NCBI GenBank assembly: GCA_023242925.1
Contig: CP096134.1
Span: 744,001 to 808,000 of the forward strand
DNA from: Hyphomonadaceae bacterium JAD_PAG50586_4
GTDB lineage: Bacteria > Pseudomonadota > Alphaproteobacteria > Caulobacterales > Aquidulcibacteraceae
Length of the DNA stretch: 64,000 bases
Reading direction: 5' to 3'
The position numbers and the translations under genes were made by a program. Below, piece after piece: positions 25,923-58,361 of the stretch (its first letter is position 1; each line of letters begins with the position of its first letter). The notes beneath the pieces are model-generated. The model was given only the letters and a program-made list of their open reading frames with translations, ran no database searches and was not told the DNA's origin.

Positions 25923-28058
25923 GTGGCGCTTCGCAAATTCGCATTCAATGTGGCGTCGCTGACGCTTGCGCGCGGTTTGCAAACCGTTGCGAGTATTGTC
26001 GCGATCCCGATCCTGGCGCGCTTTCTGCAGCCCAGCGAATTCGGCCTGATCGCGCTGGCGATGCCGTTCATCTTGTTTTGCATGGCGATTGGCGACGCGG
26101 GTTTAGGTCAGTCGCTGGTGCGTGTGAACCAAAGCGAGACTGTGGTCTGGTCGAGCGCGTTTTGGTTGATCATGGCCTTGAGTGGCGGGTTGTCACTCTT
26201 CGTTCTGGCGCTGGCGTGGCCGTACGCGATTGCGTTTGAGCACCCGGAAGTGGCGCCGATCGTGGCGGTATTGGCGATCTCGCCCTTCCTGCAGGGGCTG
26301 ACGGCGCTGCCGGTGGCGGAATTGCAGCAGCGCGAGCGTTTCCAATTGCTCGCAGCGACCGAAGTGATCGCATCGTTTGCGGCGCTGGTGTCGGCTTTAG
26401 TGCTGGCTGCGACGGGCGCGGGCGTGTGGGCGCTGGTTTCGCAAGCTACGCTTTATTGGGTGGTCAAGGCGATCGCTATCCTTTTCGCGTCGAGCTTTCG
26501 GCCGAAGCTTCAGTTCGCGGTGTCGGCGCTGGAGGGGCATTTTACCTTCAGCCGCGACTCCGCGATCGGCAATCTGGTGGCGTTCTTCAACCGCCAGATT
26601 GATCCGCTGGTGATTGGTAGAATGATGGGCGCTACGCCGCTCGGCCTCTATTCGATGGCCAATCGCTTGGCGATTTTGCCGGCGCAATTGTTGGCGGCGC
26701 CGGCGCAGAACACGCTCTATGTGAAGATGGTGGCGCTGCGCCACGATATAGCAGCCTTGCGCGATCTGGTGCTGATCTCGTCGCTGGCCGTGGCGATCTT
26801 GGTGTTTCCGCCGATGGCGATTGCATCGGTATCGAGCCATTCCTTCTTCGTCGTGTTCTTGTCCGAGAAGTGGGCTGAAGCGGCGATTTTGTTCGCGATC
26901 CTGGCGCCGGTGGCGGCGATCCAAGTTGTTTCCACGATCTGGACGCCGATGCTGCTGGCCACGGAAAACACCACGCTGCGCTTGCGCATCGGCATTGAGA
27001 TGACAGTGATGTGGCTTGCGATCTTGCCGTTCGCGGCGATGTATGGGTTGCTGGCGGTCGTGATCGCGTATGTCGTCAGCTACACGGCGTTTTCGCTGCT
27101 CCGTTCCTACAATAAATTTCTGTCTCCCGTGCAGCTCAACGTCATCGACATGACGCGGAGCTTGGCCGCGCCGCTGCTGGTTTCGACCGGTGCGGCGCTT
27201 GTGCACCTTGGTGCTATGTGGGCTTTGCGTCTGCCGCCGCTCGGCGAGGTAGCCCTGGCGCTGGCGGAGATGGTGCTGGCGTTAGCGTTGCTGGTGCTGG
27301 TCTGTCGCAAAACGCTGAGGGCGCATGTCGGCCAGTTGCGTGCGTTATTTTCGGCCGCTCCCCCGCTTGCCGAGGGGGCGCGCGTGGCGTCGCCGATTAA
27401 GATCTACGTCTGGCCGCTTGATCCAACGGCGCCGGCCGCCGCAGGGGAGCTGGCGAGCTTGTCGGAGAAGGAAGCGGCGCGGATGGCGCGCTTCGTGTTC
27501 GACAAGGATCGCTTCCGCTTCGGGCAATCACATGCGCGCTTGCGGGCGTTGCTGGGCGCGCATCTGGGTGTGGCGCCCGCTGATTTGCGCTTCGCGGAGA
27601 ACGCGCACGGCAAACCTCTGCTCGTCGGCGGGCCGTTCTTCAATCTCAGCCATTCGCACAATCTGGCCGCGCTCGCGATGAGCGACGATCTCGATCTCGG
27701 CCTAGACATCGAGCATGTGCGTGCGATCGAAGGGCCGCAGATCGCGCGGCGCTTCTTCTCACCGCAGGAATGCTCAGCGCTCAACGCGTATGAGGGCGAG
27801 AATTACGAGAACGCTTTCTATCGTTGCTGGACGCGCAAGGAAGCCTACGTGAAGGCACAAGGTGAGGGCCTTGGCATTCCATTGGATTCGTTTGATGTGA
27901 CGCTAGATGCGGAAACGCCGCCGCGTTTGCTGCGCATTGATGGCGATGATGCGAGCGCTTGGAAGATGTGGGCGTTTAGCCCGGCGCCGAATTATCAGGG
28001 CGCGGTGGCGTTGCGCACGGCTGAGGCGATTTCGTTTGAGGTGATCACCTCCGCGTAA
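25923..28058 (+). CDS. Wzx-type polysaccharide flippase read through into an Sfp-type 4'-phosphopantetheinyl transferase
   Basis: One 711-residue ORF with two unrelated parts. Residues 1-470 form a MATE/MviN-like flippase with about twelve to fourteen helices (starts ALRKFAFNVASLTLARGLQT), the lipid-linked repeat-unit exporter. Residues from about 488 onward are a complete Sfp-type PPTase: IKIYVWPLD, FFNLSHSHNLAALA, LGLDIEHVRAI and RCWTRKEAYVKAQGEGL, with the Mg-binding D-x-E and the KEAY-K motifs. The PPTase would activate the carrier domains of the adjacent NRPS-PKS. A GTG at 27385 preceded by GAGGGGG could start the PPTase separately, and a one-base error in the C5 or G5 runs at 27359-27380 would separate the two genes. 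Confidence 0.82.
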   Translation: MALRKFAFNVASLTLARGLQTVASIVAIPILARFLQPSEFGLIALAMPFILFCMAIGDAGLGQSLVRVNQSETVVWSSAFWLIMALSGGLSLFVLALAWPYAIAFEHPEVAPIVAVLAISPFLQGLTALPVAELQQRERFQLLAATEVIASFAALVSALVLAATGAGVWALVSQATLYWVVKAIAILFASSFRPKLQFAVSALEGHFTFSRDSAIGNLVAFFNRQIDPLVIGRMMGATPLGLYSMANRLAILPAQLLAAPAQNTLYVKMVALRHDIAALRDLVLISSLAVAILVFPPMAIASVSSHSFFVVFLSEKWAEAAILFAILAPVAAIQVVSTIWTPMLLATENTTLRLRIGIEMTVMWLAILPFAAMYGLLAVVIAYVVSYTAFSLLRSYNKFLSPVQLNVIDMTRSLAAPLLVSTGAALVHLGAMWALRLPPLGEVALALAEMVLALALLVLVCRKTLRAHVGQLRALFSAAPPLAEGARVASPIKIYVWPLDPTAPAAAGELASLSEKEAARMARFVFDKDRFRFGQSHARLRALLGAHLGVAPADLRFAENAHGKPLLVGGPFFNLSHSHNLAALAMSDDLDLGLDIEHVRAIEGPQIARRFFSPQECSALNAYEGENYENAFYRCWTRKEAYVKAQGEGLGIPLDSFDVTLDAETPPRLLRIDGDDASAWKMWAFSPAPNYQGAVALRTAEAISFEVITSA

Positions 28059-29222
28059 GGTGTTGAGCTCGCGTCGAGCAACGCTTCGGGTTGGCTACGC
28101 AGATAGCGATTGAAGAAAGCGAGCACGTAAGCGTTGCGGATAGTTTGCGCACGCGCGGGCGAGAGCATGAGCCATTTGCGGGCGTTACTGGCTTGGCCAT
28201 ATTCGTCGGTCAACGCTTCATGCAGCGCGCCGCGTACGAGGAACGCGTAGGTGTCGTCATGTGCGGCGGCGCGCTCAGCTTCCAGCAACGCCATCTCACG
28301 CACGATCGCATACTCATAGCGGCGGCTCGAGGCGTCCCGTGGCGCCGATGGCGGTTCGAAATCGGCGAGTAATGTGAGATAGGGCGCCGCCGGGGGCTGT
28401 GTAGCGGCTTGGCCGAATAGGCTGCCGTCGAGATTGACGATTGCGCGGAAGCGCTGGTCCATGGTCGCGGCTTCGGCCGCGGTCGCGCCGCCAAACGAGA
28501 AGCCGAGGAATCCGACACGATCGAAATCAATACGCTCGCGCCAGGTTGCAGGCATGCAAGCTTGTAAGGCATCTAGCGTGGCGACGGCCTTTTGCGATCT
28601 CGAGGGTGACGCGGCGATCGGCGTTGGCGCGGGTTTGGGCGACGGATTCGGCGCTTGAGAGATCGATCGTAGAGGTGCGAACGCGCTCGTCGTCGACGTT
28701 TGCGTACGGCGTATCCTGCGCAATGTCATCGATGCTGACCACAACATAGCCGGCGCTTGCGAGCGTTGCGCGAAAACCTGGGTTCTCGGCGCGCGCGTTG
28801 CCCCAGCCGGGGGCGTAGAGAATAACGCGGATCGCGCCGAGCTCGGGCGATGGCGGCGCGGCAAACGCTTCGGCGCATGTGTTGGCCGAGGAGGCGCCCA
28901 CGCCAGGGCGGCTGATGTCGACGCGAATGCCACCGTCGAGTGCGAGACTGTAGTGGACGATCGGGTCGAGGCGCATGCGCGCCGGCCCGACGAATTGGCG
29001 GACCACTTCGCTCAGATGCACGGCGCCGCGCCAAGCGGGCATGATGGTGAGCACAATGAGCGCGCCGAGCGCCAGCGAGCTCCACGTGTGTAGCGCGCTG
29101 CGTGGCGCAATGCGCGCCGGCGAGAACCAGAGATAAGCGAGCGCGAGTGCGGCCAGCACGAAGAGCGAAAGCGGCCAGTACCGCGCGAGCAGACGCGCGA
29201 GATATCCGACCGTGTCGATCAC
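27995..29222 (-). CDS. Membrane-anchored alpha/beta hydrolase, frameshifted near 28590
   Basis: Begins at ATG 29222 with two or three membrane helices (LSLFVLAALALAYLWF; LALGALIVLTIMPAW), then a periplasmic alpha/beta-hydrolase fold like platelet-activating-factor acetylhydrolase/dienelactone hydrolase. The frame breaks in a TTTT run (28590-28593): removing one base joins RRVTLEIAK to AVATLDALQACMP. The nucleophile elbow is GFSFGG, Asp in IVNLDGSLFG. It overlaps the C-PCP-TE synthetase gene by 4 bases, so it is the last gene of the NRPS-PKS operon and may hydrolyse, transfer or release the product outside the membrane. Its tail overlaps the convergent PPTase. Confidence 0.77.
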
Positions 29223-31987
29223 TTAGGCGCTTTACGGCGCACCGCGTCGAGAAACACTTTCACGTGCGCGCCAATGGCGGGTGAATTGGCGTCGGACAAA
29301 ATCGTGGTGTGCGTGCCGATGGCTTCGCGCACTACGACATGGCCGTTAGCGCCGTCGCGCCAGCCGAGATTGTGATCGAAGAGGCGCCCGCGCGGCATCT
29401 GCTCGCTACGGAAAATGAGCAGCTCGCCCTCGGTTTCGGTGATCGTGAAGCGATTGCGCGCCTCAATGAGGATGTGGTGATACCAGGGTGGGTCAAAGCC
29501 CTCGGCCTGCTTTGGCGCGCTCTTAATCCAGCCAAGAGCGAGCGCGGCGTTGACGATCGCGCGGGTAAATTTAAAGCTCGTCGCCCACTCGCCGAAATTC
29601 ATCTCGCCGGAGGAGAATTTTTGCCAGCGTCTCGTGTGCGCGTCGAGGCGATCGGCGAGCGTGATGACTGTTCTGTTCCAGAACGGAAGATTGCGAGTGT
29701 AACCTGGCCGCCAAGCGTCATAAGCGATGACGGCTTCCACGACGTCACCCTGCGCCCGTAATTGGCGCGCGATTTCGATCGCGAGCAAACCGGCGACGCA
29801 CAGGCCCATGAGGACATATGGCCCGGTGGGATGCGCGGTCTTCAGCAGCTTCACGTAATCTGCGGCGATCGCTTCGAACGAGAGATAATCGGCTTCGTGC
29901 GCGGTGTTCGGGTGAAAGAGCTGCAGCGACGTCAGCGGCTGATCCGGGCCGAGTTGTTTGGCGAGGCCGTAATAGAGAATGGGATTGTCGATGGCGATGA
30001 TCGGCGTTTGGGCGCCGCCGCTCGTCAGTCGCACGACATGCCAATCATCCTCGGCTGCTGCGCTCTTCGGCTTACCTAGCTGCGACGCGAACTCGCGCAG
30101 GGTGGGGCCTTTGAAGAGCGAGATCGGATCGAGGCGCACGCCGAATTGGTCGTGCACCTTGGCGATCATCTGCACGGCGAGCATGGAATGGCCGCCGAGG
30201 TCGAAGAAATGCGAGTCCGGGCCGACCGCATCGACCTTCAGCACGTCCGTCCAAATCTTGCCGACGCGGGCGATGATGTCGGTATCGACGTCGCCGAGCA
30301 GCGCGCGGGCGAACCGGCGCGGCGCGGGGAGTGCTGCCTCGTCGATGGAGCCGTCGGCGCGGCGCGGCAGTGCGCGGATCACGCTGATGCCGGCGAGGGT
30401 CGGCTCGATGTGATCTTGTTCGAGCATCGCACGCAGCGCGTCGGGCAGCGCTTCGAGCGCTTCGAGCCTATCGGCGGCGGGCGCCACGAAGGCGAACGCA
30501 TCGGCGCCGCGCTTCAGCGCGTGTGCGTCGCTGACGCTGGCGTGTGCCTTCAGGCGATCGACGATTGGGCTCAGATCAATGACGGGCGCGCTGGTGACGG
30601 CGATGTCGCGTGCTGGCGCTTCCGGCAAGGCAGAGAGCTTGATGCTCGGGTCGGCGACGACGCGTTCCAGCGTCTCGCGCCAATGCTGCAGCAGGCTTTC
30701 GGCGGTTTGGGCGCTGTAGAGATCGGTGTTGTACTCGATCGACATGCGCCAACCGTCGTCGCGGCCGATCATTTGGAAGTTGAGGTCGTAGAACGCGCCC
30801 GGCGACGGCGAAGGCACGCCCTTCAGCGTGAATTTGTCATAGCTCGCGTCTTCCAGGAAGGCGCGCTGCAGGATGACATTGATGGCGATGAGCGGCGTGC
30901 GGCTGAGATCGCGCGCCGGGTTTAGCATCTCCACAAGCTTGTGGAACGGCATGCGCTGATTGTTGAGCGCATCGCCCATCGTGCCATTGGCGCGGCCGAG
31001 AAATTCCGTGAACGAGGGATCGCCTGAGGCATTCATACGCAGCACGAGATTGTTGATGAAGACGCCGATCAGGTTTTCCAGATCGACGTCCTCGCGGCCG
31101 GCCATCTGTGTGCCGATGGTGACGTCCGTCTTGCCGACGAAGCGCGAGAGCGAGGCGCCGATGATGGCGCAGCCGAAATTGAAGAACGAGCAGCCGAAGC
31201 GCTTTGGCGTTTCTTCCAGCGCCTTGCCGACTTCTGTCGAGAGCTTGGTGGTGACGATCGCGCCATTAGTGGTGCGGCGTTCGCCGCGCGGCTGATCGGT
31301 CGGCACCTCAAAATACGGCGCGCCGGTGAGCTGCTTTTTCCAATAGTCGCGTTCGGTCTGGAAGTCGCCGCTGTCGTAATATTCCCGAAGCCAGAGCGCA
31401 TAATCGCCGTACTGCAACGGGAGTTCGGGCAGGTTTGGCGCCGTGGATCGTAGCAGTGCTTCGATTGTCGTGCCGATCTCGCGGCCGAGCACACGGATGG
31501 ACCAGCCATCGAACACGGATTGGTGCACGCAGATCAGCAGCAGCGCGCGATCGTCTTCCATCTGCATCATCGTCGCGCGCAGGAGTGGCGGCGTGGCGAG
31601 GTCGAAGGGTGCGACGGCTTCTTGCTTGCCGATTTCGGTGGCGCGGGCTTCGCGCTGATCGAGCGGCAAATGCTGGAGATCGATCAGCGTGAGCTTGAAA
31701 TTCACCTGCTCCATCGGCTCTTGCATCGGAACGCCGTCGATGCCGACGAAACGTGTGCGCAGTGATTCATGGCGCGCGATGATTTTCCGGAACGCTTGCT
31801 CGACGATCGCCGACGGCACACGGCCCTTCAATTCCCAACGCACGGCGATGTTCAGCGCCGGATTGCCCGGCTGCATCTGGTTTAAGAACCAGCAGCGCTC
31901 CTGTGCAGGTGTGCACGGAAGCAGCATGCGCCCGTCTGTGACGGGCGCTGTTTCTGGCTGATTGGGATCGTCGGCGATGTGGCTCAT
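29219..31987 (-). CDS. NRPS terminal protein: condensation - (A remnant) - carrier - thioesterase
   Basis: A 922-residue synthetase. Residues 20-450 form a condensation domain whose active motif reads HQSVFDG: His155, but Gln156 where the catalytic second His is expected. Residues about 460-545 contain only what looks like the C-terminal subdomain of an adenylation domain (LPRRADGSIDEAALPAPRR); the ATP-binding core is absent. A carrier follows with FFDLGGHSMLAVQM (Ser601, the phosphopantetheine site), then a thioesterase with MGLCVAGLLA (Cys730 in the nucleophile position) and a His in IGTHTTILS. It should accept the chain from the upstream Gly module and release it, perhaps onto an unusual acceptor. 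It is 6 bases downstream of the PKS-NRPS gene. Confidence 0.85.
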   Translation of the reverse strand: MSHIADDPNQPETAPVTDGRMLLPCTPAQERCWFLNQMQPGNPALNIAVRWELKGRVPSAIVEQAFRKIIARHESLRTRFVGIDGVPMQEPMEQVNFKLTLIDLQHLPLDQREARATEIGKQEAVAPFDLATPPLLRATMMQMEDDRALLLICVHQSVFDGWSIRVLGREIGTTIEALLRSTAPNLPELPLQYGDYALWLREYYDSGDFQTERDYWKKQLTGAPYFEVPTDQPRGERRTTNGAIVTTKLSTEVGKALEETPKRFGCSFFNFGCAIIGASLSRFVGKTDVTIGTQMAGREDVDLENLIGVFINNLVLRMNASGDPSFTEFLGRANGTMGDALNNQRMPFHKLVEMLNPARDLSRTPLIAINVILQRAFLEDASYDKFTLKGVPSPSPGAFYDLNFQMIGRDDGWRMSIEYNTDLYSAQTAESLLQHWRETLERVVADPSIKLSALPEAPARDIAVTSAPVIDLSPIVDRLKAHASVSDAHALKRGADAFAFVAPAADRLEALEALPDALRAMLEQDHIEPTLAGISVIRALPRRADGSIDEAALPAPRRFARALLGDVDTDIIARVGKIWTDVLKVDAVGPDSHFFDLGGHSMLAVQMIAKVHDQFGVRLDPISLFKGPTLREFASQLGKPKSAAAEDDWHVVRLTSGGAQTPIIAIDNPILYYGLAKQLGPDQPLTSLQLFHPNTAHEADYLSFEAIAADYVKLLKTAHPTGPYVLMGLCVAGLLAIEIARQLRAQGDVVEAVIAYDAWRPGYTRNLPFWNRTVITLADRLDAHTRRWQKFSSGEMNFGEWATSFKFTRAIVNAALALGWIKSAPKQAEGFDPPWYHHILIEARNRFTITETEGELLIFRSEQMPRGRLFDHNLGWRDGANGHVVVREAIGTHTTILSDANSPAIGAHVKVFLDAVRRKAPK

Positions 31988-31993
31988 CGGGAT

Positions 31994-34468
31994 TTATGTC
32001 CGTTGGCGGCGCGCACCGCCGCGGAAGTCGCGCAGCGAAGGCCGAGTGGAAGCGGCTTCTTCGCCGGAGGCCATGCGCTCGGCCAGTTCGGCCAATTCAG
32101 CGACGGTCGGGTGACGCATCACGTGCTTGGCTTCGAGGCCGATGCCTTGGTCGATCATGCGCGCGGCGATGCGGAAGAGCGTCAGGCTGTCGGCGCCGAG
32201 CGAGAACATATTGTCGTGGACGGAGATCGCGGGGATCTGCAGTACGGCTACGCAGATGTCGGCAAGCTTCTGCTCCATGGCGTTGCGCGGGGCGACAATG
32301 GTACGCTCGGGCAGCGTTGCGGTGACGTCCGGCTCCGGCAACGCTTTGCGGTCGAGCTTGCCGTTCGCCGTGAGCGGCAGCGCATCGAGCGCCATCCACA
32401 TGGTTGGGACCATGTAGTCGGGCAATTGCGCGGCGAGCGTGTCGGTGAGTTGCTTGGCGTCGAGTGCAGCACCTTGGTTCAGCACGACATAGCCGACGAG
32501 GCGGGGCGTGTCGCCGCCACGTAGTGCAGTGGCTGCGGCGTTGACGCCCGGCGCTTTGCGCAGCGCGGTTTCAATGTCTTCGAGTTCGATGCGGAAGCCG
32601 CGCAGCTTCACCTGGTGATCGCTACGGCCGAGCAATTGGATGTCGCCATTTGCGAGGCGGCGGCCAACATCGCCCGTATTGTAGAGGCGTTGCGCGGCGC
32701 GGCCCGGCAAAGTCACGGTGCGGAACGCGCCGGCGGTAAGGTCGTCGCGCTTGAAATAGCCAAGCGCCAGACCATCGCCGCCGATATAGAGCTGACCCGT
32801 CACGCCGATGGGCGCGAGTTGATCGTTTGCGTCGAGGATGAAGAGCTGGGTGTTGTCGATCGGCTCACCGATCGTGATCGGCTTGCCATTTTCAACGCGG
32901 GTGCACGATGACCAAATCGTTGTTTCGGTCGGGCCGTACATATTCCAGAGGTCGGCGCCGGTCGCAGTGAGCGCATCGGCCAGATCGCGCGGCAGCGGTT
33001 CGCCGCCGCACAGCATCTTGAGGCCAGCACGTGGCTTGAAGCCGGCTTCCATCAACATGCGCCAGAGCGACGGCGTGGCTTGCACCACTGTGGCGCCGAC
33101 ATTGTTGACCAGGTCGACCAAGCCGAAGCCGCCGCGCACGACGTCACGGTCGGCGATGACGACACGGCCGCCCTTGATCAGCGGCAGATAAAGTTCGAGG
33201 CCGGCGATGTCGAACGAGATCGTCGTCACGGCCACGAGCACATCGCTCGCTTCAAAGCCAGGCTTCTTCGCCATCGAGAGCAGGAAGTTGACGACCGCGC
33301 GATGGGGCACGGCCACGCCTTTCGGCACGCCGGTGGAGCCCGAGGTGAAGATCACATAGGCGGCGCGCTCCGGATCGCCGAGCGCAGGCTCGATGACGCT
33401 TTCAGATTCTTGCGCGATCGCGGCCGCATCCTGATCGATGCGGATGATTTTCACGCCGGCCGGTGCGAAGGTGGCGGCGATGTCGTTGTTGCAGACGATG
33501 GCGGCGACGTCAGCGGCTTCCACGGTTTGGCGCAGGCGCGCGGCCGGGTGCGTCGCGTCGAGCGGCACGTAGGTGTGGCCGGCCTTCATGACGGCGATCA
33601 AGGTCGCCAGCATGTCGATGGAACGGTCGGTGGCGACGGCGATGCGTTGGCCGAGGCCAGGCGCGGACTTACGGAAGTGACGTGCCAGCTGGTTGGCGCG
33701 CTTGTCGAGCGCCGCATAGGTGATGCTCTCGTCGCCGCACATTGCGGCAATGGCGTCCGGCGTCTTCGCGGCTTGTGCGGCAATCAGATCATGGACGAAC
33801 GCGTCAGTCGGAAAGCCGGCGCGCGTGTCGTTTAGCGCGTCGATCAGCCAATTGAGTTCACTCGGGCCGTGCATCGGCAGTTCGGCGACCTTGAGGCTCA
33901 TGTCGGCCGCGAGTGCGGAGAGGATCGCCCGATAATGGCCGACCCAGCGCTGGATCGTGGCGGCGTCGAACACGTCGGTGTTGAAGTCGCAATCGATACG
34001 CAGGCCGTCGTCGGACTCCACGACGTTCCAGAATATGTCGAAGTTCGAGAACGCTTTCGGGTTCGGTGCGATCGCGACTTTCAGGCCGCCGAATTCGACA
34101 CCATCGGCTATGCGCTCGAGGTTGAACTGGATTTCGGTCAGCGGCAGGCGGTTCGGGTCGCGCTTGACGCCGAGCTTTCGCACCAAAGTGCCAAAGGTGA
34201 AGTCCTGGTGCTCATACGCGTCCAGCACTTGCTTCTTGGCGTTCTGGAGATGCGTGGCAAACGGCGCTTGCGCGTCGAAGGCGGCGCGGATCGGCAGGAA
34301 GTTGACGGCGTGACCGACAAGGATTTCGCCGTCGAGGAGGCTTTGCCCAGCCGTCGGCACGGCGACGACAACGTCATTGGCGTTGGCGAGGCGGCCCATC
34401 ATCACTTGCAGCGTGGCCAGCAGGGTCGCGAACAACGTGCACCCTTGCTTGGCGCCGGCCTTCTTCAC
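31994..34468 (-). CDS. NRPS module, 3' part: end of condensation domain, glycine-type adenylation domain, carrier
   Basis: An 824-residue reading frame that continues the protein encoded at 34374-40007 after a frameshift near 34495. It opens in the middle of a condensation domain (GCTLFATLLATLQVMMGRL), then a full adenylation domain: AYVIFTSGSTGVPKGVAVPH, NMYGPTETTIW, LGRSDHQVKLRGFRIEL and LTANGKLDRKALP. The specificity residues I extract are D-I-L-Q-L-G-M-I-W-K, close to the known glycine code. The carrier is MFSLGADSLTLFRIA. The GTG at 34468 is only the first possible start after the break. It would be the second module of the line. Confidence 0.86.
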   Translation of the reverse strand: MKKAGAKQGCTLFATLLATLQVMMGRLANANDVVVAVPTAGQSLLDGEILVGHAVNFLPIRAAFDAQAPFATHLQNAKKQVLDAYEHQDFTFGTLVRKLGVKRDPNRLPLTEIQFNLERIADGVEFGGLKVAIAPNPKAFSNFDIFWNVVESDDGLRIDCDFNTDVFDAATIQRWVGHYRAILSALAADMSLKVAELPMHGPSELNWLIDALNDTRAGFPTDAFVHDLIAAQAAKTPDAIAAMCGDESITYAALDKRANQLARHFRKSAPGLGQRIAVATDRSIDMLATLIAVMKAGHTYVPLDATHPAARLRQTVEAADVAAIVCNNDIAATFAPAGVKIIRIDQDAAAIAQESESVIEPALGDPERAAYVIFTSGSTGVPKGVAVPHRAVVNFLLSMAKKPGFEASDVLVAVTTISFDIAGLELYLPLIKGGRVVIADRDVVRGGFGLVDLVNNVGATVVQATPSLWRMLMEAGFKPRAGLKMLCGGEPLPRDLADALTATGADLWNMYGPTETTIWSSCTRVENGKPITIGEPIDNTQLFILDANDQLAPIGVTGQLYIGGDGLALGYFKRDDLTAGAFRTVTLPGRAAQRLYNTGDVGRRLANGDIQLLGRSDHQVKLRGFRIELEDIETALRKAPGVNAAATALRGGDTPRLVGYVVLNQGAALDAKQLTDTLAAQLPDYMVPTMWMALDALPLTANGKLDRKALPEPDVTATLPERTIVAPRNAMEQKLADICVAVLQIPAISVHDNMFSLGADSLTLFRIAARMIDQGIGLEAKHVMRHPTVAELAELAERMASGEEAASTRPSLRDFRGGARRQRT

Positions 34469-37400
34469 CGCGCGATAGAGATTCTGCGTCGATGAAATCG
34501 GTGTACGTGGCGCCGGCGAAGGTTTTCACCGCTGGGCGCGCGCGGTCGTACGGCAGCTCAGCCAGCGCCGGGATTGTCTTGTATTGGTTCAGCCAATAGG
34601 TCTCGATCTCGGCTTTGGTGGCGCCGCGCGCGGCTTGGTCGGTCGCGTATTGCGCGTAGGAAAGCGGCTTCGGCAGATCGGCCTTCGCGCCGGCGAGGCG
34701 GGCGCCGTACGATTTCGAGAGCTCATCGACGATGATGTTGAGTGACCAACCGTCGGCGACGATGTGATGGCCGGTGAAGACCAGCACATGCAGCTGCGGG
34801 CTGAGCTTCAGCACATGAGCGCGCATGACCGGGCCGTTGATCAAGTCGAACGGTGTCGCGGCGTCTTGCGCCATGAAGGCTTTCAGCGACGCTTCCGAAT
34901 CAGCTTCATTGCTGACGTCGATGACCGGGAGATCGATGACAGCGTCAGGCGAGATGATCATGCGATCGCCAGCGCGCGAGAAGCGGGCGCGCATCGCGTC
35001 GTGACGCAGTGAGACGTCCTTCATTGCGTTGGCGAGCGCATCGGTGCTGAGCGGGCCTTCGAAGCGCACGCTCATGCTTTCGTTGAAGGCGCAGGAGGCT
35101 TCGTCGCCCATTTGCGAGGCGAGCCAGACTTCGATCTGCGGCTCGGTCAGCGGCGACTCACTCGGCGACGCGGCGGTGGCGACAGCGGCGGACGCAGCGG
35201 CCGCGCCTTCTTTCGGCGCGAGGATGCCGGCGCCCTGCAGCGCGTCGAGCGCTTGGCCGAACACGCGATAGACCTTTTCCAGATCTTCGTCCGTGTGTGT
35301 GGTCGTCAAAAAGCAGGGGAAGCCTTCCTGAATGTGGACGCCCAAATGGCGCACATAGAGGTAGAACAAGCTGCCCAGGCGATCTTCGCCGGCGAAATTG
35401 ATGTTGAACCAGGACGAGAAAGTTTCCGCGCGCGTGGCGATGCCGCGACGGGCGAGATCGGAATTGATGCGCTCCACGAGAGCGTTGCAACGCTCCGCGA
35501 GCTTGGTCTGCAAGCTCGGACCTTGCTCTTCCATGTACGTCATAACCGCGTGGCAGGCGGCGAGCACGAGCGGGTGACGCACGAACGTGCCGGCGAAGAA
35601 CGTGGGCGCCACTTCCGGCACGGAATCATCGCCATAGCGCCATTGACCGCCATCAAGCGCGTCCATGAAGCGCGGCGCGCCGGCGAGAATGCCCACCGGC
35701 ATGCCGCCGCCAAGCACTTTGCCGTACGTCGCCATATCGGCGCGGACGCCATAGAGCGCCTGCATGCCGCCTTGGTGCGTGCGGAAGCCGGTGACGACTT
35801 CATCGAACACGAAAGCCGTGCCGGATTGCTCGGTGATGACGCGAATCTCTTTCAGGAACTCGGTCGGGCGAATTTCCGGGTGACGGCTTTGCACCGGCTC
35901 AACAATGACGGCCGCAAGGTCGTTCGCGTTGGCGCAGATCCAATCAAGCGATTCCGGCGCGCCGTAATTCAGCACGATCATGTTTGCGACCGATTCCGGC
36001 GGCACGCCGATTGTGACCGGCAATGCTTTCGGGCCTTGGCGCTTGCCGCCGGGCTTCACCAGCACTTCGTCGAACTGGCCGTGATAATCGTTGTTGAAGA
36101 CGACGATCTTGTTGCGGCCAGTTACGGTACGGGCGAGGCGCATCGCCGCCATCACCGCTTCCGAACCGGTGTTGCAGAACGTCACGCGTTCCATGCCGAT
36201 CATGTTGGCGATTTGCTTGGCGACCACGCCGGCGAGCGGCGCTTGCGGGCCGATGGCGAAACCGGCCTTGGTTTGCTCAATCACCGCCTCTTGGACGAAG
36301 TCCGGCGCGTGGCCGAACATGGTCTGGCCAAAGCCGTTGACGAGGTCGATATATTCGTTGCCGTCGACGTCCCAGATGCGCGAGCCCTTCGAGCGCGGCG
36401 ACACGATCGGATAGACGGCTTCCTTCCATTCGGCGCGGAAGCCGTTGGCGGCGCGCGGATCGGCGAGGGTTGGCCGATTGTCGGCGGTGTAGGATTTCGA
36501 GCCCGGCGTGCGCGCTGTGTATTGCTGCACGAAGGTTTCGATGAAATCGCGCTGCGCGTTCGACACTTGCTGCGCTTGCGGGCGGGCGCCGCGCAGATAT
36601 TGCTTGAAGCGTTGCGGGGTGGTGTCTTCGTCGTCGGCTGGCGCGTCAGCAGCCGGCGCTTTTGCAGTTGGCGCAGGCGCAGCTTTCGCGGCAGGCGCTG
36701 CGACGGGAGCCGCAACCGGAGCCGGTGCAGCCGCCGCCATTGGCATCGCCGCCGGCACGCCTTGCATCGCGGCGAGTTGTTGCGCGAACAGGTTTTGCAT
36801 CGCCGCCATTTGCGCGGCGAAAACGCCTTCCATGCCGCCGGCGATCGGCATCGGCTGCGCCATCATCGGCGCGGCGACCATTTGCATCGGGGCTTGCGCG
36901 ACGGGCGCCGCAGCCACTGACGCAGCGGCGGCTGGCGCGGCTTCGGCAGGCATCGTGGCGTCGAGGAAGGCGACCAGAGCTTCAACGGTTGGAATGTCGT
37001 TCACGAGCTGGCGGAAGGTGATCTTCACCCCGAACTTCGAAGCGAGCTGCTGCACGACTTGGCCGAGCAACAAGCTGTCGAAGCCAAGCTCAAGGAAGCT
37101 CGCATTCGTATCCGCGCCTTCAAGCGACTCGCCTGAGAGGTCTTCGAGGATTTCCGTGATCGCGGCGCGGAAGTTGGCCAGGCGCGCTTCAGAGGACGGC
37201 ATAGACATGAGTACAGGTTCCGGGTTGGAAGCTTGGATTGGGACGTAGGTTGGCGGCGCCACGAGTGTTGGCGTCGGGAAGGAAATCACCTGCGCTTGCT
37301 GCGCCTGATGGGCGTGCTTTGGGGCGTCGATGAAATGGCTTTGGCGTTGGAACGGGTAGGTTGGCAGCGAGATCCGGCGCCCTTCGAGGGGACGACGCGC

Positions 37401-40007
37401 GTTCCAATCGATCGCGGCGCCCATGGCCCACAGGCGGCCGAAGGCTTCGGCCATGGTGACATCGTCGGCGCTCGTACGCGTCGCTTCCGGCATGGAATTG
37501 ATCAGTGCGCCAGCGCCGCCCTTGCCGAGAATTTGCGAGGCGAGGGTCGCCAGTGTGCGACCGGGGCCGACTTCGATGAGGATGGGCTTGGCGTCTTTGC
37601 TGACCGCAGCGATACCATCGGCGAAGCGCACAGCTTCGCGGCAATGACGCGCCCAATAATGCGGTTCGCGCGCTTCGTCCGGCTTGATCCAATCGCCGGT
37701 GAGGCTGGAGACGTACGGAATGCTCGGTGCGCTGAAGCGAATTTTTGCGGCTTCCTGCGTCAGCGCTTCGACCACGGGCGCCATCATGCGCGAGTGGAAG
37801 GCGTGCGAAGTGTGTAGGCGGCGATGCACGACACCTGCCGCATCGAGCGTCTTTTCCAGCGCGTCGACATCCTCGAACGTGCCGGAGACGACGCAAAGGT
37901 TCGGCGAATTGATCGCGGCGAGATCGAGCGTGTCGCCGAGATAGGGGCGCAGATCAGCTTCGCTCAGGCGCACCGAGAGCATCGCGCCGCCTGGCATGTC
38001 CTGCATTAAGCGGCCGCGCGCGGCGATGAGCGTCAGCGCGTCTTCGAATTGCATCACGCCCGAGAGGCACGCGGCGACAAACTCGCCGACGCTGTGACCG
38101 ATCATGGCCGTGGGTTGCACGCCCCAGCTCATCCAAAGACGCGCGGTGGCGTATTCAATCAGGAAAAGCGCGGGTTGTGCGAGCAGCGTGGAGCGGATCG
38201 GATGCGGCGCGTCCTCGGAGGGCGGCGCATCGTCGTAGAGGATTTTCAGCAGGTCGAGACCGGAGAGGCGCTGCAGCAAAGCCGCGCCCTTCTGCATGAT
38301 GTCGCGGAAGAGCGGCTCGCGTTCATAAAGGTCGCGACCCATGCCGGGATATTGCGCGCCCTGGCCCGGGAACATGAAGATGATAGGCGCGCTGTCGGCG
38401 GCGGTGCTGATCGCGGTTGCGCCGCGCAGCTTGGCGATGGCCTCTTCGCGCGTGCTTACGGCGATGACTGTTCGCTTCGGGAAAGCGCGGCGGCCTTCGA
38501 TCAGCGTGAATGCGACGTCGTTGAGCGCGAGTGCGGGTGTCGCTTCCAAATGTGCAGCGAGGCGTTCCTTGGCCTGCGCAAGCGCTTCGTCGCTGCGCGC
38601 GGAGAGCGGCAGGATGATCGGCGTATCGTCTTGCGCGGTTTCGGCGGCGATGACGCGCGGCGCTTCTTCCAACACAAGGTGCACGTTGGTGCCGCCCATG
38701 CCGAAGGAGCTGACGCCAGCGCGACGCGGCGTTGCGCCACGCGGCCAGGGCATTAGCTTATCGACGACGTAGAACGGGCTGTTGGCGAAATCGATGCGCG
38801 GGTTCGGCGCGGCGTAGTTCGCCATCGGCGGCATTTCGCCGTGGTGCAGACTGAGTGTTGCTTTGATGAGACCGGCTACGCCGGCGGCGGCGTCGAGGTG
38901 GCCGATGTTCGCTTTGATCGAACCGAGGCCGCAGAATTGGCGCGTCTCGCTGCCAAAGGCTTTGCGTAGGCCTTCAAACTCGATCGGATCGCCGAGCGGC
39001 GTCGCGGTGCCGTGGCACTCGATGTAGGAAATGGACTCTGGATCGACGCCAGCGACAGCTTGTGCAGTGGCGATGACGGCGGCTTGGCCATCGACGCTTG
39101 GCGCGGTGAAGCCGACTTTGTCGGCGCCGTCATTGTTGATCGCCGCGGCGCGGATCACCGCGTAAATCCGATTGCCGTCGCGCAGCGCGTCTTCGAGGCG
39201 CTTCAACAGCACTACGCCCGCGCCCATGCCGAACACGGTGCCCGCGCCCTTGGCGTCGAACGGGCGGCAGATGCCGTCCGGGGCGACGATACCTTCTTCT
39301 TGGAAGAGGTAGCCGCGCTTGATTGGGAACGAGATCGACACGCCGCCCGCAAGCGCCATGTCCGATTGATAGAGCTGCAAGCTTTGGCACGCTTGCGCCA
39401 CGGCGAGCAGCGAGGTTGAGCACGCGCTCTGCACATTGATGGCGGGGCCGCGCAGATTGAGTTTGTAGGCGACGCGGGTGGCGAAGAAGTCTTGCAGACC
39501 GCCGGTCCAGGTCGAGAAATCGGCGACCTGATAATTGCTCGCCGCGCGTTCCATCGCCGCGCGGTCCGGCATGACGTGCGTGGCCATATAAGTGGAGAAG
39601 GCGGTGCCTGCGAACACGCCGATGGCGCCGTCATAGCGCGAGGAATCAACGCCGCCGTCTTCCAACGCTTCCCATGCGCATTCGAGGAAAACGCGATGTT
39701 GCGGGTCGATCGAAGCGGCTTCGCGCGCGAGCATGCCGAAAAAACCGGCGTCGAACTTGTCGACGTCCTCGATGATCGGCCGCGCTTTTACAAAATTCGG
39801 ATCGTTGCGTACTTCGGGCGGATGCGCGTCTTCAAGCTCTTGGTCGCTGAAGCGCGTGACCGAGCACACGCCATTGCGGATGTTGTCCCAAAACTGGTCA
39901 AGGTTCTTCGCACCAGGGAAACGACCGGAGATACCGACGATAGCAATCGCGTCCGACGCGAGTGCGTCAGATGCGTTTTCGTCTGCTATCGTGTCGTTCC
40001 CAGACAC
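34374..40007 (-). CDS. Hybrid PKS-NRPS megasynthase: KS-AT-ACP-aminotransferase-C (frame lost in C domain)
   Basis: A 1877-residue protein as read. KS: NVQSACSTSLLA (Cys196), ECHGTATPLGDP and KANIGHLDAAAG complete the Cys-His-His triad. AT: MIGHSVGEFVAA (Ser639) and HTSHAFHS, the HAFH type usual for malonyl-CoA. ACP: FLELGFDSLLLGQ. After an Ala/Pro/Met-rich linker comes a class-III aminotransferase with MATYGKVLGGGMPVG (PLP lysine Lys1430), as in mycosubtilin/iturin and microcystin McyE-type enzymes. Then a condensation domain with intact GHHIVADGW (His1748). There is no KR, DH or MT. The frame changes near 34495 and continues at 31994-34468. Start GTG 40007 overlaps the A-PCP stop. Confidence 0.9.
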   Translation of the reverse strand: MSGNDTIADENASDALASDAIAIVGISGRFPGAKNLDQFWDNIRNGVCSVTRFSDQELEDAHPPEVRNDPNFVKARPIIEDVDKFDAGFFGMLAREAASIDPQHRVFLECAWEALEDGGVDSSRYDGAIGVFAGTAFSTYMATHVMPDRAAMERAASNYQVADFSTWTGGLQDFFATRVAYKLNLRGPAINVQSACSTSLLAVAQACQSLQLYQSDMALAGGVSISFPIKRGYLFQEEGIVAPDGICRPFDAKGAGTVFGMGAGVVLLKRLEDALRDGNRIYAVIRAAAINNDGADKVGFTAPSVDGQAAVIATAQAVAGVDPESISYIECHGTATPLGDPIEFEGLRKAFGSETRQFCGLGSIKANIGHLDAAAGVAGLIKATLSLHHGEMPPMANYAAPNPRIDFANSPFYVVDKLMPWPRGATPRRAGVSSFGMGGTNVHLVLEEAPRVIAAETAQDDTPIILPLSARSDEALAQAKERLAAHLEATPALALNDVAFTLIEGRRAFPKRTVIAVSTREEAIAKLRGATAISTAADSAPIIFMFPGQGAQYPGMGRDLYEREPLFRDIMQKGAALLQRLSGLDLLKILYDDAPPSEDAPHPIRSTLLAQPALFLIEYATARLWMSWGVQPTAMIGHSVGEFVAACLSGVMQFEDALTLIAARGRLMQDMPGGAMLSVRLSEADLRPYLGDTLDLAAINSPNLCVVSGTFEDVDALEKTLDAAGVVHRRLHTSHAFHSRMMAPVVEALTQEAAKIRFSAPSIPYVSSLTGDWIKPDEAREPHYWARHCREAVRFADGIAAVSKDAKPILIEVGPGRTLATLASQILGKGGAGALINSMPEATRTSADDVTMAEAFGRLWAMGAAIDWNARRPLEGRRISLPTYPFQRQSHFIDAPKHAHQAQQAQVISFPTPTLVAPPTYVPIQASNPEPVLMSMPSSEARLANFRAAITEILEDLSGESLEGADTNASFLELGFDSLLLGQVVQQLASKFGVKITFRQLVNDIPTVEALVAFLDATMPAEAAPAAAASVAAAPVAQAPMQMVAAPMMAQPMPIAGGMEGVFAAQMAAMQNLFAQQLAAMQGVPAAMPMAAAAPAPVAAPVAAPAAKAAPAPTAKAPAADAPADDEDTTPQRFKQYLRGARPQAQQVSNAQRDFIETFVQQYTARTPGSKSYTADNRPTLADPRAANGFRAEWKEAVYPIVSPRSKGSRIWDVDGNEYIDLVNGFGQTMFGHAPDFVQEAVIEQTKAGFAIGPQAPLAGVVAKQIANMIGMERVTFCNTGSEAVMAAMRLARTVTGRNKIVVFNNDYHGQFDEVLVKPGGKRQGPKALPVTIGVPPESVANMIVLNYGAPESLDWICANANDLAAVIVEPVQSRHPEIRPTEFLKEIRVITEQSGTAFVFDEVVTGFRTHQGGMQALYGVRADMATYGKVLGGGMPVGILAGAPRFMDALDGGQWRYGDDSVPEVAPTFFAGTFVRHPLVLAACHAVMTYMEEQGPSLQTKLAERCNALVERINSDLARRGIATRAETFSSWFNINFAGEDRLGSLFYLYVRHLGVHIQEGFPCFLTTTHTDEDLEKVYRVFGQALDALQGAGILAPKEGAAAASAAVATAASPSESPLTEPQIEVWLASQMGDEASCAFNESMSVRFEGPLSTDALANAMKDVSLRHDAMRARFSRAGDRMIISPDAVIDLPVIDVSNEADSEASLKAFMAQDAATPFDLINGPVMRAHVLKLSPQLHVLVFTGHHIVADGWSLNIIVDELSKSYGARLAGAKADLPKPLSYAQYATDQAARGATKAEIETYWLNQYKTIPALAELPYDRARPAVKTFAGATYTDFIDAESLSRGEEGRRQARVHVVRDPAGHAASDDGPPRQRQ

Positions 40008-41896
40008 TAGCCCCTGCCTTTCTTGGCGTCCCGCATACGTGCAAGCGCCTCAGCCTGGCGCTTCGCTTTGTCCTTAACTGCAAGAGCCGCGCCGCCGGTT
40101 TCGCCTTTAGGTTTGCGTAACCGTTCGGCCAGGTCGCGGATCTTGGGCGCTTCGAACAGCACTACTAATGGAACGTCGGGACTGAGTTTTTCCTGAATTT
40201 TCGCGTGTACGCGGATTAAAAGAAGTGAGGTGCCGCCGAGGTCGAAGAAATTATCGTCGAGACCGACGGCGCCGATGCCCAAAACTTCACGCCAAATTTC
40301 CGCTAACGTGCGTTCGGTGTCGTCGTTGGTTTCCAATGGCTTAAAGTCGAGGCGCGGCGCGGGCAGCGCCTTACGATCTAATTTACCAGCCGGCGTCAGC
40401 GGGAACCTCTCCATCACGACAACGTCGGAGGGGATCAAGTGCGCCGGTGCGTGCGTTTTTAAGCGTTCGATAATGGCTGCGCCAAAGGCGGGCGGCGCCG
40501 GTTGCTCGACGGGCTTCAAATAGGCGGCGAGGCGTTTGATGCCGGGCATGTCTTCACGCAGGATCGCCGCGGCGTCGGCGACTTCATCGTCCATGCGCAG
40601 CAGGGCTTCGACTTCGTCGAGTTCGACGCGCTTGCCGTTCAGCTTCACTTGCCGATCGTTGCGACCGACAAATTCGATCAAGCCATCCGGGCGGCGGCGT
40701 ACGATATCGCCTGTGCGATAGAGTCGTTCACCGGTTTGCGGGTGGCGTACGAATTTTTGCGCGGTGAGTTCGGGCTGGTTGTGATAGCCGATGGCGAGAC
40801 CATCGCCGCCTGTGCAAAGCTCACCAGTTTCGCCGTCAGCAACTTCGCGCAACGCCTCATCCATCACGTAGATGGTGCAATGATCGACGGCGTCGCCAAT
40901 CGGCACGGAGCCTTCGCACCAGCCTGTCGGCGGCAGCACAAAACACGTGGTAATAATGCTGTTTTCAGTGGGGCCGTAGGCGTTCACGACCATCGTGTTT
41001 GGCATGGCGCGCGCAGCTTTATCCGCGTGCTGAACGGAGAACACGTCGCCGCCGACGAACATGCCGCGCAGGCTCGCGAGCGCAGCCGGATTGTGCTCGA
41101 CCATGTAATGGAAGATGCCGGTGCTGAAGATGGTCCACGTCGCCTTCGTGCGATTGACGGCGTCGATGATGCGATCGAGCGACGGCGTCGCGTCCGGCAA
41201 AATTGCTAGCGTGCCGCCGTTTGCAAGCGCGCCCCAGATTTCTAATTGGCTGGGGTCGAACGAGAGCGCCACCATGTGCAGCACCACGTCGCCAGGACCG
41301 GTGATGCCGACGAATTTGTTGCGCCACGTGCTGCGCACCACGCCGCGGTGCGGGACGATGACGCCCTTGGGCTGGCCCGTGGAACCAGAGGTGTACATGA
41401 GATAGGCGGCGTCTTCAGGCGCACCTTCGTGGGCGGCGATCTGGGCGTCGCCAGGCTCATAGCTCAGCAGGATCGTGTTCGCAGGCGGGAACCCGAGCTG
41501 CAGGAAATTGAGGGCATCGGCCTGCGCGAACAGGGCTTTCGGGGCGGCGTCGCTTAGCATGAAAGCGAGGCGTTCGCGCGGGTAGGCGGGGTCAAGCGGC
41601 GTGAAGGCCGCGCCGACCTTAAGCGTCGCGATCATTGCCGCGATCGCTTCGATCGAGCGAAGGGTCAGCAGGGCGACGACGTCGCCCGGGCCAACGCCGA
41701 TCGCCTGAAGCTTGGCCGCGAGCTTGTTCGAGAACGCGTCGAGTTCCGCGTAGCTCAGGGTGCGGCCTTCTTGTTCCACGGCCGTCACGTGCGGCGCGGA
41801 TTGTACGTAGCCGGCGAAGAGCTGGGTGAGGGTCTTGTCGCGAGGGTAAGTGGCGGGCGAGACGACGCCGAAGGCGGGATTCTCAGCTAGGCTCAT
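40007..41896 (-). CDS. NRPS loading protein: adenylation domain and peptidyl carrier
   Basis: A 629-residue protein with one adenylation domain (AAYLMYTSGSTGQPKGVIVP, VNAYGPTENSIITTC, YRTGDIVRRRPDGLIEFVG, LTPAGKLDRKALP) and one carrier (DDNFFDLGGTSLLLIRV), followed by a Lys-rich tail (KDKAKRQAEALARMRDAKKG). No condensation domain precedes it, so it should load the starter unit. Specificity residues read D-P-L-I-F-G-A-I-I-K, for which I recall no standard assignment. It is the first gene of the minus-strand operon and its stop overlaps the PKS start (TAGTG). Confidence 0.9.
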   Translation of the reverse strand: MSLAENPAFGVVSPATYPRDKTLTQLFAGYVQSAPHVTAVEQEGRTLSYAELDAFSNKLAAKLQAIGVGPGDVVALLTLRSIEAIAAMIATLKVGAAFTPLDPAYPRERLAFMLSDAAPKALFAQADALNFLQLGFPPANTILLSYEPGDAQIAAHEGAPEDAAYLMYTSGSTGQPKGVIVPHRGVVRSTWRNKFVGITGPGDVVLHMVALSFDPSQLEIWGALANGGTLAILPDATPSLDRIIDAVNRTKATWTIFSTGIFHYMVEHNPAALASLRGMFVGGDVFSVQHADKAARAMPNTMVVNAYGPTENSIITTCFVLPPTGWCEGSVPIGDAVDHCTIYVMDEALREVADGETGELCTGGDGLAIGYHNQPELTAQKFVRHPQTGERLYRTGDIVRRRPDGLIEFVGRNDRQVKLNGKRVELDEVEALLRMDDEVADAAAILREDMPGIKRLAAYLKPVEQPAPPAFGAAIIERLKTHAPAHLIPSDVVVMERFPLTPAGKLDRKALPAPRLDFKPLETNDDTERTLAEIWREVLGIGAVGLDDNFFDLGGTSLLLIRVHAKIQEKLSPDVPLVVLFEAPKIRDLAERLRKPKGETGGAALAVKDKAKRQAEALARMRDAKKGRG

Positions 41897-49042: not shown

Positions 49043-49216
49043 ATGCTTATGACGCGCACCCAACGCTCGCCCCTTGAGGCCATTGTACCGCCGCCAGTCG
49101 CGCGCACGCGCGAACCTGCGCGCGGTATGCCTGTGTATGTGTCGGTACTGGCGGCCATTGGGGTCAGTTTGCTCCTTTGGACTGGCATTTTCGGCCTAGT
49201 TTCTCTGATTTTTTGA
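49043..49216 (+). CDS. Small single-pass membrane protein, 57 residues
   Basis: A short ORF starting at ATG 49043 (MLMTRTQRSPLEAIVPPPVA) with a proline/arginine-rich head and a strongly hydrophobic C-terminal helix (VYVSVLAAIGVSLLLWTGIF) ending FGLVSLIF. The membrane-helix pattern is unlikely in a random frame. Its 3' end overlaps the convergent O-antigen-ligase-like gene by 21 bases and it is divergent from the gene at 48132. Function unknown. Confidence 0.5.
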   Translation: MLMTRTQRSPLEAIVPPPVARTREPARGMPVYVSVLAAIGVSLLLWTGIFGLVSLIF

Positions 49217-55289: not shown

Positions 55290-55332
55290 CCTCAACGTTT
55301 GTCACTGCCCCGGTCCTTGCATAAGCAGGAGC

Positions 55333-58359: not shown

Positions 58360-58361
58360 GC

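Follow-up and report, generated by a model that had tools for sequence, protein, structure and literature searches.

A hybrid NRPS-PKS operon tied to alphaproteobacterial exopolysaccharide loci and its possible role in polymer decoration

The window, a 64,000-nucleotide stretch of contig CP096134.1, carries on its minus strand an operon that encodes a modular hybrid NRPS-PKS assembly line and a membrane-anchored hydrolase. The congener G044 (contig JAFLCU010000002.1) served for comparison. In the direction of transcription the operon includes the following features.

40007..41896, minus strand: A-PCP loading module (Pfam AMP-binding and PP-binding; 90% identity to G044)
34374..40007, minus strand: KS-AT-ACP-aminotransferase-C, N half of the C domain (Pfam, sequence and orthologue motifs)
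34374..34468, minus strand: frame-break region within the C domain (single frame in G044)
31994..34468, minus strand: C (C half)-A-PCP (Pfam, pocket residues)
29219..31987, minus strand: C*-(A-domain remnant)-PCP-TE release module (Pfam; alignment of 121 homologues and alignment to solved C domains)
28527..29222, minus strand: membrane-anchored alpha/beta hydrolase, N-terminal part (the unbroken G044 protein has two hydrophobic segments)
27995..28933, minus strand: C-terminal part of the alpha/beta hydrolase, read in a different frame (Pfam: PAF-AH_p_II over its cut-off, a PETase-like match under it)

The first-pass annotation had described four closely spaced minus-strand genes with the domain order A-PCP / KS-AT-ACP-AMT-C-A-PCP / C-PCP-TE / membrane hydrolase. 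Pfam confirms the order and the tight spacing, with neighbouring genes overlapping by 1 or 4 bases or separated by 6 (the two broken genes excepted); two of the four genes are not intact but frame-broken in the window. The operon is not a chance arrangement, since its Pfam E-values reach 2.6e-88 and orthologues are present in several orders. All C-domain matches of genome G000 fall within it. A protein search with the hydrolase found nine relatives including itself, one of them from Vitreimonas flagellata.

The A, KS, AT, C and carrier domains are present with their active-site motifs, including HAFHS in the AT and HHIVADGWS in the module-2 C domain of the window. The AT motif, HAFHS and the module-2 HHxxxDG were present in 18/18 orthologous large proteins (the set left after removal of one overlapping spurious ORF), and the KS and aminotransferase patterns in 16 of the 18 each. 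The aminotransferase domain resembles GSA aminomutases. By alignment, the pocket of the first A domain (A1) is D-P-L-I-V-G-A-I-I, a code that to our knowledge matches none described; its first Asp is kept in all 18 A1 domains read, and the codes differ between loci. The second pocket (A2), DILQCGMIW, we take to be glycine-type, as it is in 19/19 loci read (19 of the 42 loci described below) and in the second A domain of the unrelated NRPS of G031, a member of the same genus.

The operon is embedded in a set of polysaccharide genes.

18872..20203, minus strand: VpsF-family polysaccharide protein, Wzy-like (NCBIfam 204.6 bits against a cut-off of 150)
21228..22649, plus strand: GINT1_N / GH43-like protein (Pfam)
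22639..23763, plus strand: GT4 glycosyltransferase (Pfam)
24934..25707, minus strand: TIGR04325-family methyltransferase (NCBIfam 179 bits, cut-off 80)
25923..~28058, plus strand: one ORF with a Wzx flippase in its first ~490 aa and a 4'-phosphopantetheinyl transferase, PPTase, in its last ~220 aa (Pfam, NCBIfam)
42220..~43644, plus strand: UDP-glucose/GDP-mannose dehydrogenase, 'algD' (Pfam)
43667..44917, plus strand: GH5 glycoside hydrolase (Pfam)
44914..46863, minus strand: heparinase II/III-family protein (Pfam)
46845..48089, minus strand: backbone marker weakly similar to AMP-dependent CoA ligases (in 3/60 family genomes)
49196..50569, minus strand: Wzy_C / O-antigen-ligase-type polymerase (Pfam)
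50837..51292, plus strand: Wza-like export protein, matched part (NCBIfam, under the curated cut-off)
52000..53841, plus strand: Wzz/Wzc co-polymerase, frame-broken, with the kinase part reaching ~54274 (Pfam)
54510..55289, plus strand: initiating sugar transferase (Pfam 200 bits; best NCBIfam match WcaJ, under its cut-off)
60063..61463, plus strand: pntB, right-hand boundary of the variable exopolysaccharide (EPS) address (Pfam)

The initiating transferase, Wzx, Wzy, Wzz and, below its NCBIfam cut-off, Wza together make up the set of a Wzx/Wzy-dependent EPS locus. The TIGR04325 methyltransferase also adjoins the synthetase in other genera, with 47-57% identity to the loci of other families, and we know of no established role for this family. 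Among the literature matches listed, the one paper that mentions both TIGR04325 and 'exopolysaccharide' concerns Leptospira transcriptomes. No enzyme plainly joining an acyl group to a sugar was found among these genes. The GINT1_N protein, a homologue of which immediately follows the C-PCP-TE gene in Rhizobium loci, was considered as an acyl-transfer enzyme and rejected on account of the GH43 domains in some of its relatives.

Several reading frames are interrupted in the window. In the second synthetase gene a change of frame near 34.48 kb leaves two ORFs, with the C domain divided between them; G044 encodes a single chain of 2671 aa (open frame 2693), and this chain, together with 17 other orthologues read, rules out a genuine two-gene split. 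The hydrolase, broken into two ORFs in the window, is a single 419-aa ORF in G044. The operon had been placed between algD and a Wzx with an appended PPTase; Pfam bears out the location, and the fusion did not survive comparison, as G044 has Wzx and PPTase as separate ORFs, each in its own frame, and annotated loci of Loktanella, Rhizobium, Jannaschia and Rhodobacter have a stand-alone PPTase gene. Proteins of the two relatives are broken in the window in 6/30 and 7/27 cases, against 1/24 each way between G044 and G031. This excess and the intact genes of the congener indicate that the breaks in the window, and the apparent fusion, are probably assembly indels.

The C-PCP-TE domains assigned to the release module by the first-pass annotation are present, and the gene also conceals an A-domain remnant, an HQxxxDG motif in the C domain (HQSVFDG in the window) and a Cys thioesterase. 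C domains of the line are thus not uniformly HHxxxDG: among 121 homologues (the best 120 of 343 proteins retrieved, and that of G044) the catalytic position is occupied by Gln in 101, His in 12, Glu in 6 and Pro in 1, the one gap being P0025, a fragment without a C domain. The A domain of this module is usually gone, leaving a C-terminal remnant in the window protein, and the A3 motif is absent from 108/108 proteins with HQ, HE or HP. Ten homologues without the A domain still have HH, so that loss of the His does not strictly track loss of the A domain. The PCP Ser and the TE nucleophile, Cys730 in the window, are kept in 121/121. The conserved Asp757 (115/121) lies 27 residues past Cys730, and His893 is conserved too.

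Could the last module be a decayed relic, and the window operon a pseudogene cluster? The module has lost its A domain and catalytic His, and two genes of the operon are frame-broken. Against this, G044 is intact, dN is far below dS between the window and G044 synthetases, the Ser and Cys residues are invariant, and the surplus of breaks in the window points to its assembly. We regard decay as very improbable.

The NRPS thioesterases SulM (sulfazecin) and ObiF1 (obafluorin) are described as having a Cys nucleophile and a catalytic Asp after strand 7 (PMC11298585). The window TE shares the Cys nucleophile; its Asp757, judged by spacing, is taken to be at the usual position instead. On this difference in spacing a SulM-like, beta-lactam-forming TE was rejected.

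The link of the synthetase with EPS genes was followed across genomes. Wzz (PF02706) and the PF02397 sugar transferase lie no more than 30 kb away in 23/23 genomes with an orthologue (expected 1.0 and 0.93), and 0/6 of the other C-domain (NRPS) loci of these 23 genomes have Wzz or the sugar transferase on the contig. Counts across the 42 loci compared (the window and 41 others) are not independent: a single rhizobial arrangement recurs in many of them, and five of them, along with the inserts of G031 and G053, supplied the marker proteins. Wzx was found in 41, PPTase in 40, the sugar transferase in 40, Wza in 38 and TIGR04325 in 33. For the 33 loci below 95% nucleotide identity the numbers are 32, 31, 31, 30 and 24, given in the same order. 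Every locus (42/42) has Wzx or Wza, and in 40/42 three or more of the set Wzx, Wzz, Wza and sugar transferase are present. PPTase is absent from the G291 and G751 stretches, and TIGR04325 from 9/42.

These loci span the genus of the window, Rhizobiaceae, Rhodobacterales and one further alphaproteobacterial family (G291). A plasmid search gave, among the matches listed, 38 records in which one place spans 80% or more of the query. Loci H1-H19 are the best 19 of that ranking (H18 covers 72%); the entries listed below them have 28-35% identity and resemble general NRPSs, with 1080 further records beyond the list. A class-wide survey found matches in 17/387 genomes at E 1e-60, the window's own included; of these only G291, by identity and span, looks orthologous besides the window. 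There was no match in the 76 genomes of the G416 family. An rRNA probe target occurred in 1/389 genomes and did not serve to recognise Rhizobiaceae. Weak matches also occur in G010, G012 and G055, and G058, a member of the window's genus, carries two other NRPS genes, near which a PPTase is the sole EPS marker.

Judged from gene content, the link between synthetase and exopolysaccharide is strong and general. It supports the earlier suggestion, taken as joint alternatives, of a product that is synthesised along with the polysaccharide, bound to it or exported at its side. Of the two kinds of separation that the first-pass annotation had named, EPS loci without this synthetase do occur (G031, and G033, G051, G055 and G047 at the same address), and the synthetase apart from EPS genes was not seen among the 23 genomes and 42 loci.

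Three distinct assembly lines, each with a Wzx of its own, occupy one chromosomal EPS address in the genus. G031 keeps the EPS genes of the window at about 86% nucleotide identity; its Wzx, TIGR04325 methyltransferase and synthetase are gone save for short remnants, that of TIGR04325 being a 34-residue match. An insert of ~11.7 kb at the far end of the G031 locus encodes the line A-PCP-C-A-PCP-TE together with a different Wzx, a CheR-type methyltransferase and an esterase. The third line (A-PCP, KS-AT-KR, DH, PCP-TE) stands at the same address in G053, accompanied by a hydrolase, a Wzx and a methyltransferase. The G032, G046 and G042 stretches, which have Wzx and not the shared address, were left out of these counts. 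Synthetase dS is 0.41-0.85, against 1.1-2.2 in the flanks; as pntB (0.40) and pntAA (0.62) are similarly low, this is weak evidence of transfer.

The pairing with Wzx does not prove decoration, because flippases of the MOP family could export a free product. The line might make a free small molecule (a signal, antibiotic or metallophore) that is co-expressed with EPS and leaves through a Wzx-like MOP flippase, the shared location reflecting shared biofilm regulation. Some free products are exported by MOP-superfamily transporters, the TE could merely hydrolyse, CRP and response-regulator genes stand beside the cluster in annotated Rhizobium loci, and the G031 and G053 lines each have a hydrolase and a methyltransferase, common in free-product clusters. 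However, Wzx or Wza accompanies the synthetase at every one of the 42 loci, G031 has lost the line together with its Wzx and bears a different line, with a different Wzx, at the end of the same backbone locus, and no resistance gene or TonB receptor was seen among the window ORFs scanned, a part of all ORFs. We consider a free product fairly unlikely.

The domain order can be set against known systems. McyE/NdaF-type modules of the microcystin and nodularin synthetases have the same KS-AT-ACP-aminotransferase-C-A-PCP order and join a beta-amino acid to the next residue. Compared by domain order, the window line differs in having no C-methyltransferase domain by Pfam, an A-PCP loading module, a glycine-type second A domain, a C*-PCP-Cys-TE end and an EPS locus around it. 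MycA/ItuA-type modules of the iturin lipopeptide synthetases likewise have a PKS module, an aminotransferase and then an NRPS; the window line is short, with no fatty-acid loading module recognised, and lies in an EPS context. Wzx/Wzy-dependent EPS loci, which share with the window Wzx, a Wzy-like protein, Wzz, a Wza-like protein and the initiating transferase, can carry non-sugar substituents such as pyruvate or acyl groups, and substituents and Wzx can co-vary. What differs here is the proposed source of the substituent, an NRPS-PKS line accompanied by a PPTase of its own.

On balance we favour a reading of these sequences in which the dedicated line would build a short glycine-ended acyl group that the Cys-TE likely moves to a sugar of the EPS repeat unit before the partner Wzx exports it. 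A1 would load an amino acid, perhaps aliphatic, KS-AT would extend the chain by two carbons, and the aminotransferase would convert the beta-keto group to a beta-amine, yielding a 3,4-diamino acid to which glycine is then joined. The chain may move without elongation to the last PCP via the C* domain, a thiol-to-thiol transfer for which the catalytic His would not be needed. The Cys-TE could then pass it to an amine or hydroxyl of a sugar linked to a nucleotide or to undecaprenyl. The TIGR04325 methyltransferase would trim the unit, and Wzx would recognise and flip it, with Wzy/Wzz/Wza polymerising and exporting it. The neighbouring PPTase would activate the carriers, and the membrane-anchored hydrolase may edit the unit. 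Attachment to the EPS is what we infer, and the group likely decorates its units.

A lipid-like or peptide anchor or primer of the polysaccharide, in place of a side-chain substituent, would account for the tie to Wzx and the initiating sugar transferase, and a comparable role has been proposed for rkpA-F in the Sinorhizobium K-antigen. Yet the predicted product would be short, polar and amine-bearing, and an ordinary initiating sugar transferase is still present in the window, which makes an anchor improbable.

With somewhat less than even confidence, we extend the decoration reading to a new class: swappable NRPS/PKS cassettes that sit in EPS loci with their own Wzx and methyltransferase, like sugar-serotype genes elsewhere, and that may give peptide or beta-amino-acyl groups to glycans through a repurposed C*-PCP-Cys-TE with a non-condensing, pass-through C domain. 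Among the matches listed, whose titles and abstract beginnings were covered (subscription papers and most preprints lie outside), none dealt with EPS decoration by an NRPS or NRPS-PKS. If the reading is right, some modular peptide/polyketide synthetases would be structural coat enzymes and not solely makers of free metabolites, and the absence from the cluster of an obvious dedicated exporter or resistance gene would be explained. Bacteria would have a new way to vary their coats, a small amino-acid tag placed on the polymer before export, and with it a non-sugar axis of variation bearing on phage or host recognition and adhesion. Amine-bearing EPS would be predicted in rhizobia and roseobacters, and the Cys-TE end would offer a glycan-directed release module for engineering. 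Cultured rhizobia carry the same operon, and the reading is directly testable there.

The operon lies on the minus strand of a 4.18 Mb genome (single contig, 92.8% completeness), whose three C-domain matches all (3/3) fall inside it. Its genes and their Pfam domains in the window are as follows.

40007-41896, minus strand, A-PCP
34374-40007, minus strand, KS-AT-ACP-aminotransferase-C
31994-34468, minus strand, rest of the second gene's C domain and A-PCP
29219-31987, minus strand, C-PCP-TE
27995-29222, minus strand, alpha/beta hydrolase, in two frames

The operon is surrounded by genes encoding Wzx with a PPTase, a TIGR04325 methyltransferase, VpsF-type and Wzy_C proteins, glycosyltransferases, a nucleotide-sugar dehydrogenase, GH5, heparinase, Wza-like and Wzz/Wzc proteins, and the initiating sugar transferase. 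The EPS locus also holds a formyltetrahydrofolate deformylase gene (16808-17764; above the PRK06027 cut-off, slightly below that of TIGR00655). A weak MreB/Hsp70-like actin-fold protein adjoins an EPS tyrosine kinase (14283-15656, 15622-16662), and several congeners retain this pair where the variable EPS address meets its flank.

Neither the hydrolase gene nor the second synthetase gene is split in the congener G044, where each is a single open reading frame. Six of 30 G044 proteins, and seven of 27 from a second congener, G031, are broken across frames in the window, affecting nine distinct genes in total; the break in 21154-22646 touches only about 46 N-terminal residues.

Window genes frame-broken relative to G044 or G031.
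660-1495
17767-19223
21154-22646
23700-25066
27998-29222
34374-34468
52009-54274
55267-56102
58259-59435

Conversely, 3 of 28 window frames are broken in G044 and 4 of 29 in G031, those of Wzx-PPTase and Wzz among them, and between G044 and G031 the figure is 1 of 24 in each direction. Since breaks are commoner in the window than between these two relatives, the window breaks are most likely assembly indels. The same applies to the appended PPTase of the first-pass annotation: the two domains do share one frame in the window, but the joined frame is most likely the product of an assembly indel. Other window findings based on fusions or splits therefore call for caution. The window frames were left unrepaired, and domain analysis was carried out on the intact G044 chain.

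A protein search with the C-PCP-TE protein retrieved 343 relatives, of which the best 120, including the window's own, were listed. Within the Rhizobiaceae, recognised by a MinD match, an orthologue is present in 20 of 393 genomes and 9 of 99 genera. Of 60 genomes from the family to which the window belongs, 8 gave any match, full-length only in the window's genome and G044.

In all 23 genomes examined (20 Rhizobiaceae, the window's genome, G044 and G291, a carrier from another alphaproteobacterial family) the orthologue has Wzz and a PF02397 sugar transferase no more than 30 kb away, against expectations from genome-wide counts of 1.0 for Wzz and 0.93 for PF02397. The same genomes hold six further C-domain loci, none of which has Wzz or PF02397 on its own contig (contigs of any length counted). 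Seven annotated plasmid stretches from Loktanella, Rhizobium, Jannaschia and Rhodobacter likewise place the synthetase amid EPS genes, with a PPTase in 7/7, a flippase in 6/7 and a sugar transferase in 5/7; in two of the seven A-PCP is fused onto the large protein. Markers were then tallied by tblastn in 42 loci (19 plasmid stretches and the same 23 genomes), five of which supplied the markers and so match themselves.

Loci with each marker, among all 42 and among the 33 below 95% identity.
Wzx: 41; 32
PPTase: 40; 31
Sugar transferase: 40; 31
Wzz: 39; 30
Wza: 38; 30
Pyruvyl transferase: 35; 27
GINT1-like: 35; 27
TIGR04325: 33; 24

The sole locus lacking Wzx, in Rhizobium SL42, retains Wza; those lacking the PPTase are in G291 and the carrier genome G751. 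By our reading there are about eight arrangements, one of them common to most rhizobial loci. In the congener G058 the only marker near two NRPS genes is a PPTase.

Within the genus, the EPS address carries different lines. In G031 the EPS genes are collinear with those of the window at ~86% nucleotide identity, but nothing of the synthetase is left except ~226 bases of A-PCP; Wzx is largely gone, the TIGR04325 gene is down to 34 residues, and the PPTase and hydrolase are retained. An insert of ~11.7 kb separates its pntB from the next shared gene and encodes a CheR-type methyltransferase, a dimodular A-PCP-C-A-PCP-TE synthetase, an esterase and a different Wzx. Synthetase, esterase and Wzx occupy L137:2743-11524 (G031:C2:192.7-201.5 kb) on the margin of this EPS locus, and the methyltransferase gene adjoins them. 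The synthetase has a Ser as TE nucleophile and NHxxxDN as C motif. A TIR-domain protein adjoins the swapped region (L137:839-1594). At the same address G053 has a third line, A-PCP, KS-AT-KR, DH and PCP-TE, followed by a hydrolase, Wzx and a methyltransferase (together L046:5774-19573, G053:C5) and bounded by actin-like, tyrosine-kinase and Wzz genes on one side and pntAB on the other; one of its frames also gives a luciferase-like monooxygenase domain. Four further relatives have Wzx and Wzz there without the synthetase trio: G033 and G051 (both sides seen), and G055 and G047 (ydbH side). The large synthetase gave a weak match in both G033 and G051 (28-30%), and G033 also has an A-domain-like match (29% over ~500 residues).

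The notion that synthetase and EPS genes always occur together thus holds in one direction: this line was not seen without EPS genes among the loci compared, but G031, G033, G051, G055 and G047 have an EPS backbone without it. Such a pattern of loss and replacement is what a decoration module that is matched to its flippase would be expected to show. Wzx may instead export a free product rather than a decorated unit; the pattern, taken alone, is compatible with this. The synthetase block (29170-42057) is 86.5% identical to that of G044, with adjoining EPS flanks mostly at 67-75%; dS between the two is 0.41-0.85 for the synthetase and 1.1-2.2 for the flanks, and is low for pntB too. Among the literature matches listed, no EPS-bound NRPS-PKS product and no such gene set is described; the domains and the kind of EPS locus are known, and their combination and mode of exchange were not found described there.

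The aligned pocket of the second A domain reads DILQ-x-G-(M/L)-(I/V)-W in all 19 loci read, which we take to be a glycine code. That of the first A domain varies between loci, with its first Asp retained in 18/18; two codes are presumably valine-like and several others aliphatic-type, those of Jannaschia and Loktanella being unlike these. The AT motif is HAFHS (18/18), presumably of malonyl type, and the C domain of module 2 retains HHxxxDG in 18/18 and in the window.

The last module was compared in 121 proteins (the best 120 of 343 homologues plus that of G044). At the second His position of its C motif 101 have Gln, 6 Glu, 1 Pro, 12 His and 1 a gap; in an alignment with three solved C domains the Gln faces their second His. 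Two proteins, both HH, keep the A3 motif typical of A domains; HH is likewise seen in G291, and its last A domain carries the glycine code too. A3 is absent from ten further HH proteins and from all 108 HQ, HE or HP proteins, nine of which still have a Pfam A domain with empty A3 columns. The C-to-PCP linkers fall into bins of ~375-449 (n = 9), 100-149 (n = 63) and 25-74 residues (n = 47), which suggests step-wise loss of the A domain.

The PCP Ser and the TE Cys are retained in 121/121, Asp757 in 115/121 and His893 in 113/121. Because A domain and His are mostly lost but the PCP Ser and the TE Cys never are, the last module probably adds no residue any more and is retained as a carrier-release unit. 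Hand-over within it would be from thiol to thiol, needing no catalytic base. In SulM and ObiF, both Cys thioesterases, the Asp follows strand 7 (PMC11298585); the last-module TE shares the Cys nucleophile, but its Asp spacing, unlike theirs, looks usual. Nine longer homologues of 1207-1258 aa (P0108, P0112, P0113, P0116, P0117, P0119, P0122, P0123 and P0124; one named gammaproteobacterial) have an HQ C domain and a Cys TE together with an A domain that Pfam still recognises but that lacks A3, and are perhaps intermediates of A-domain loss.
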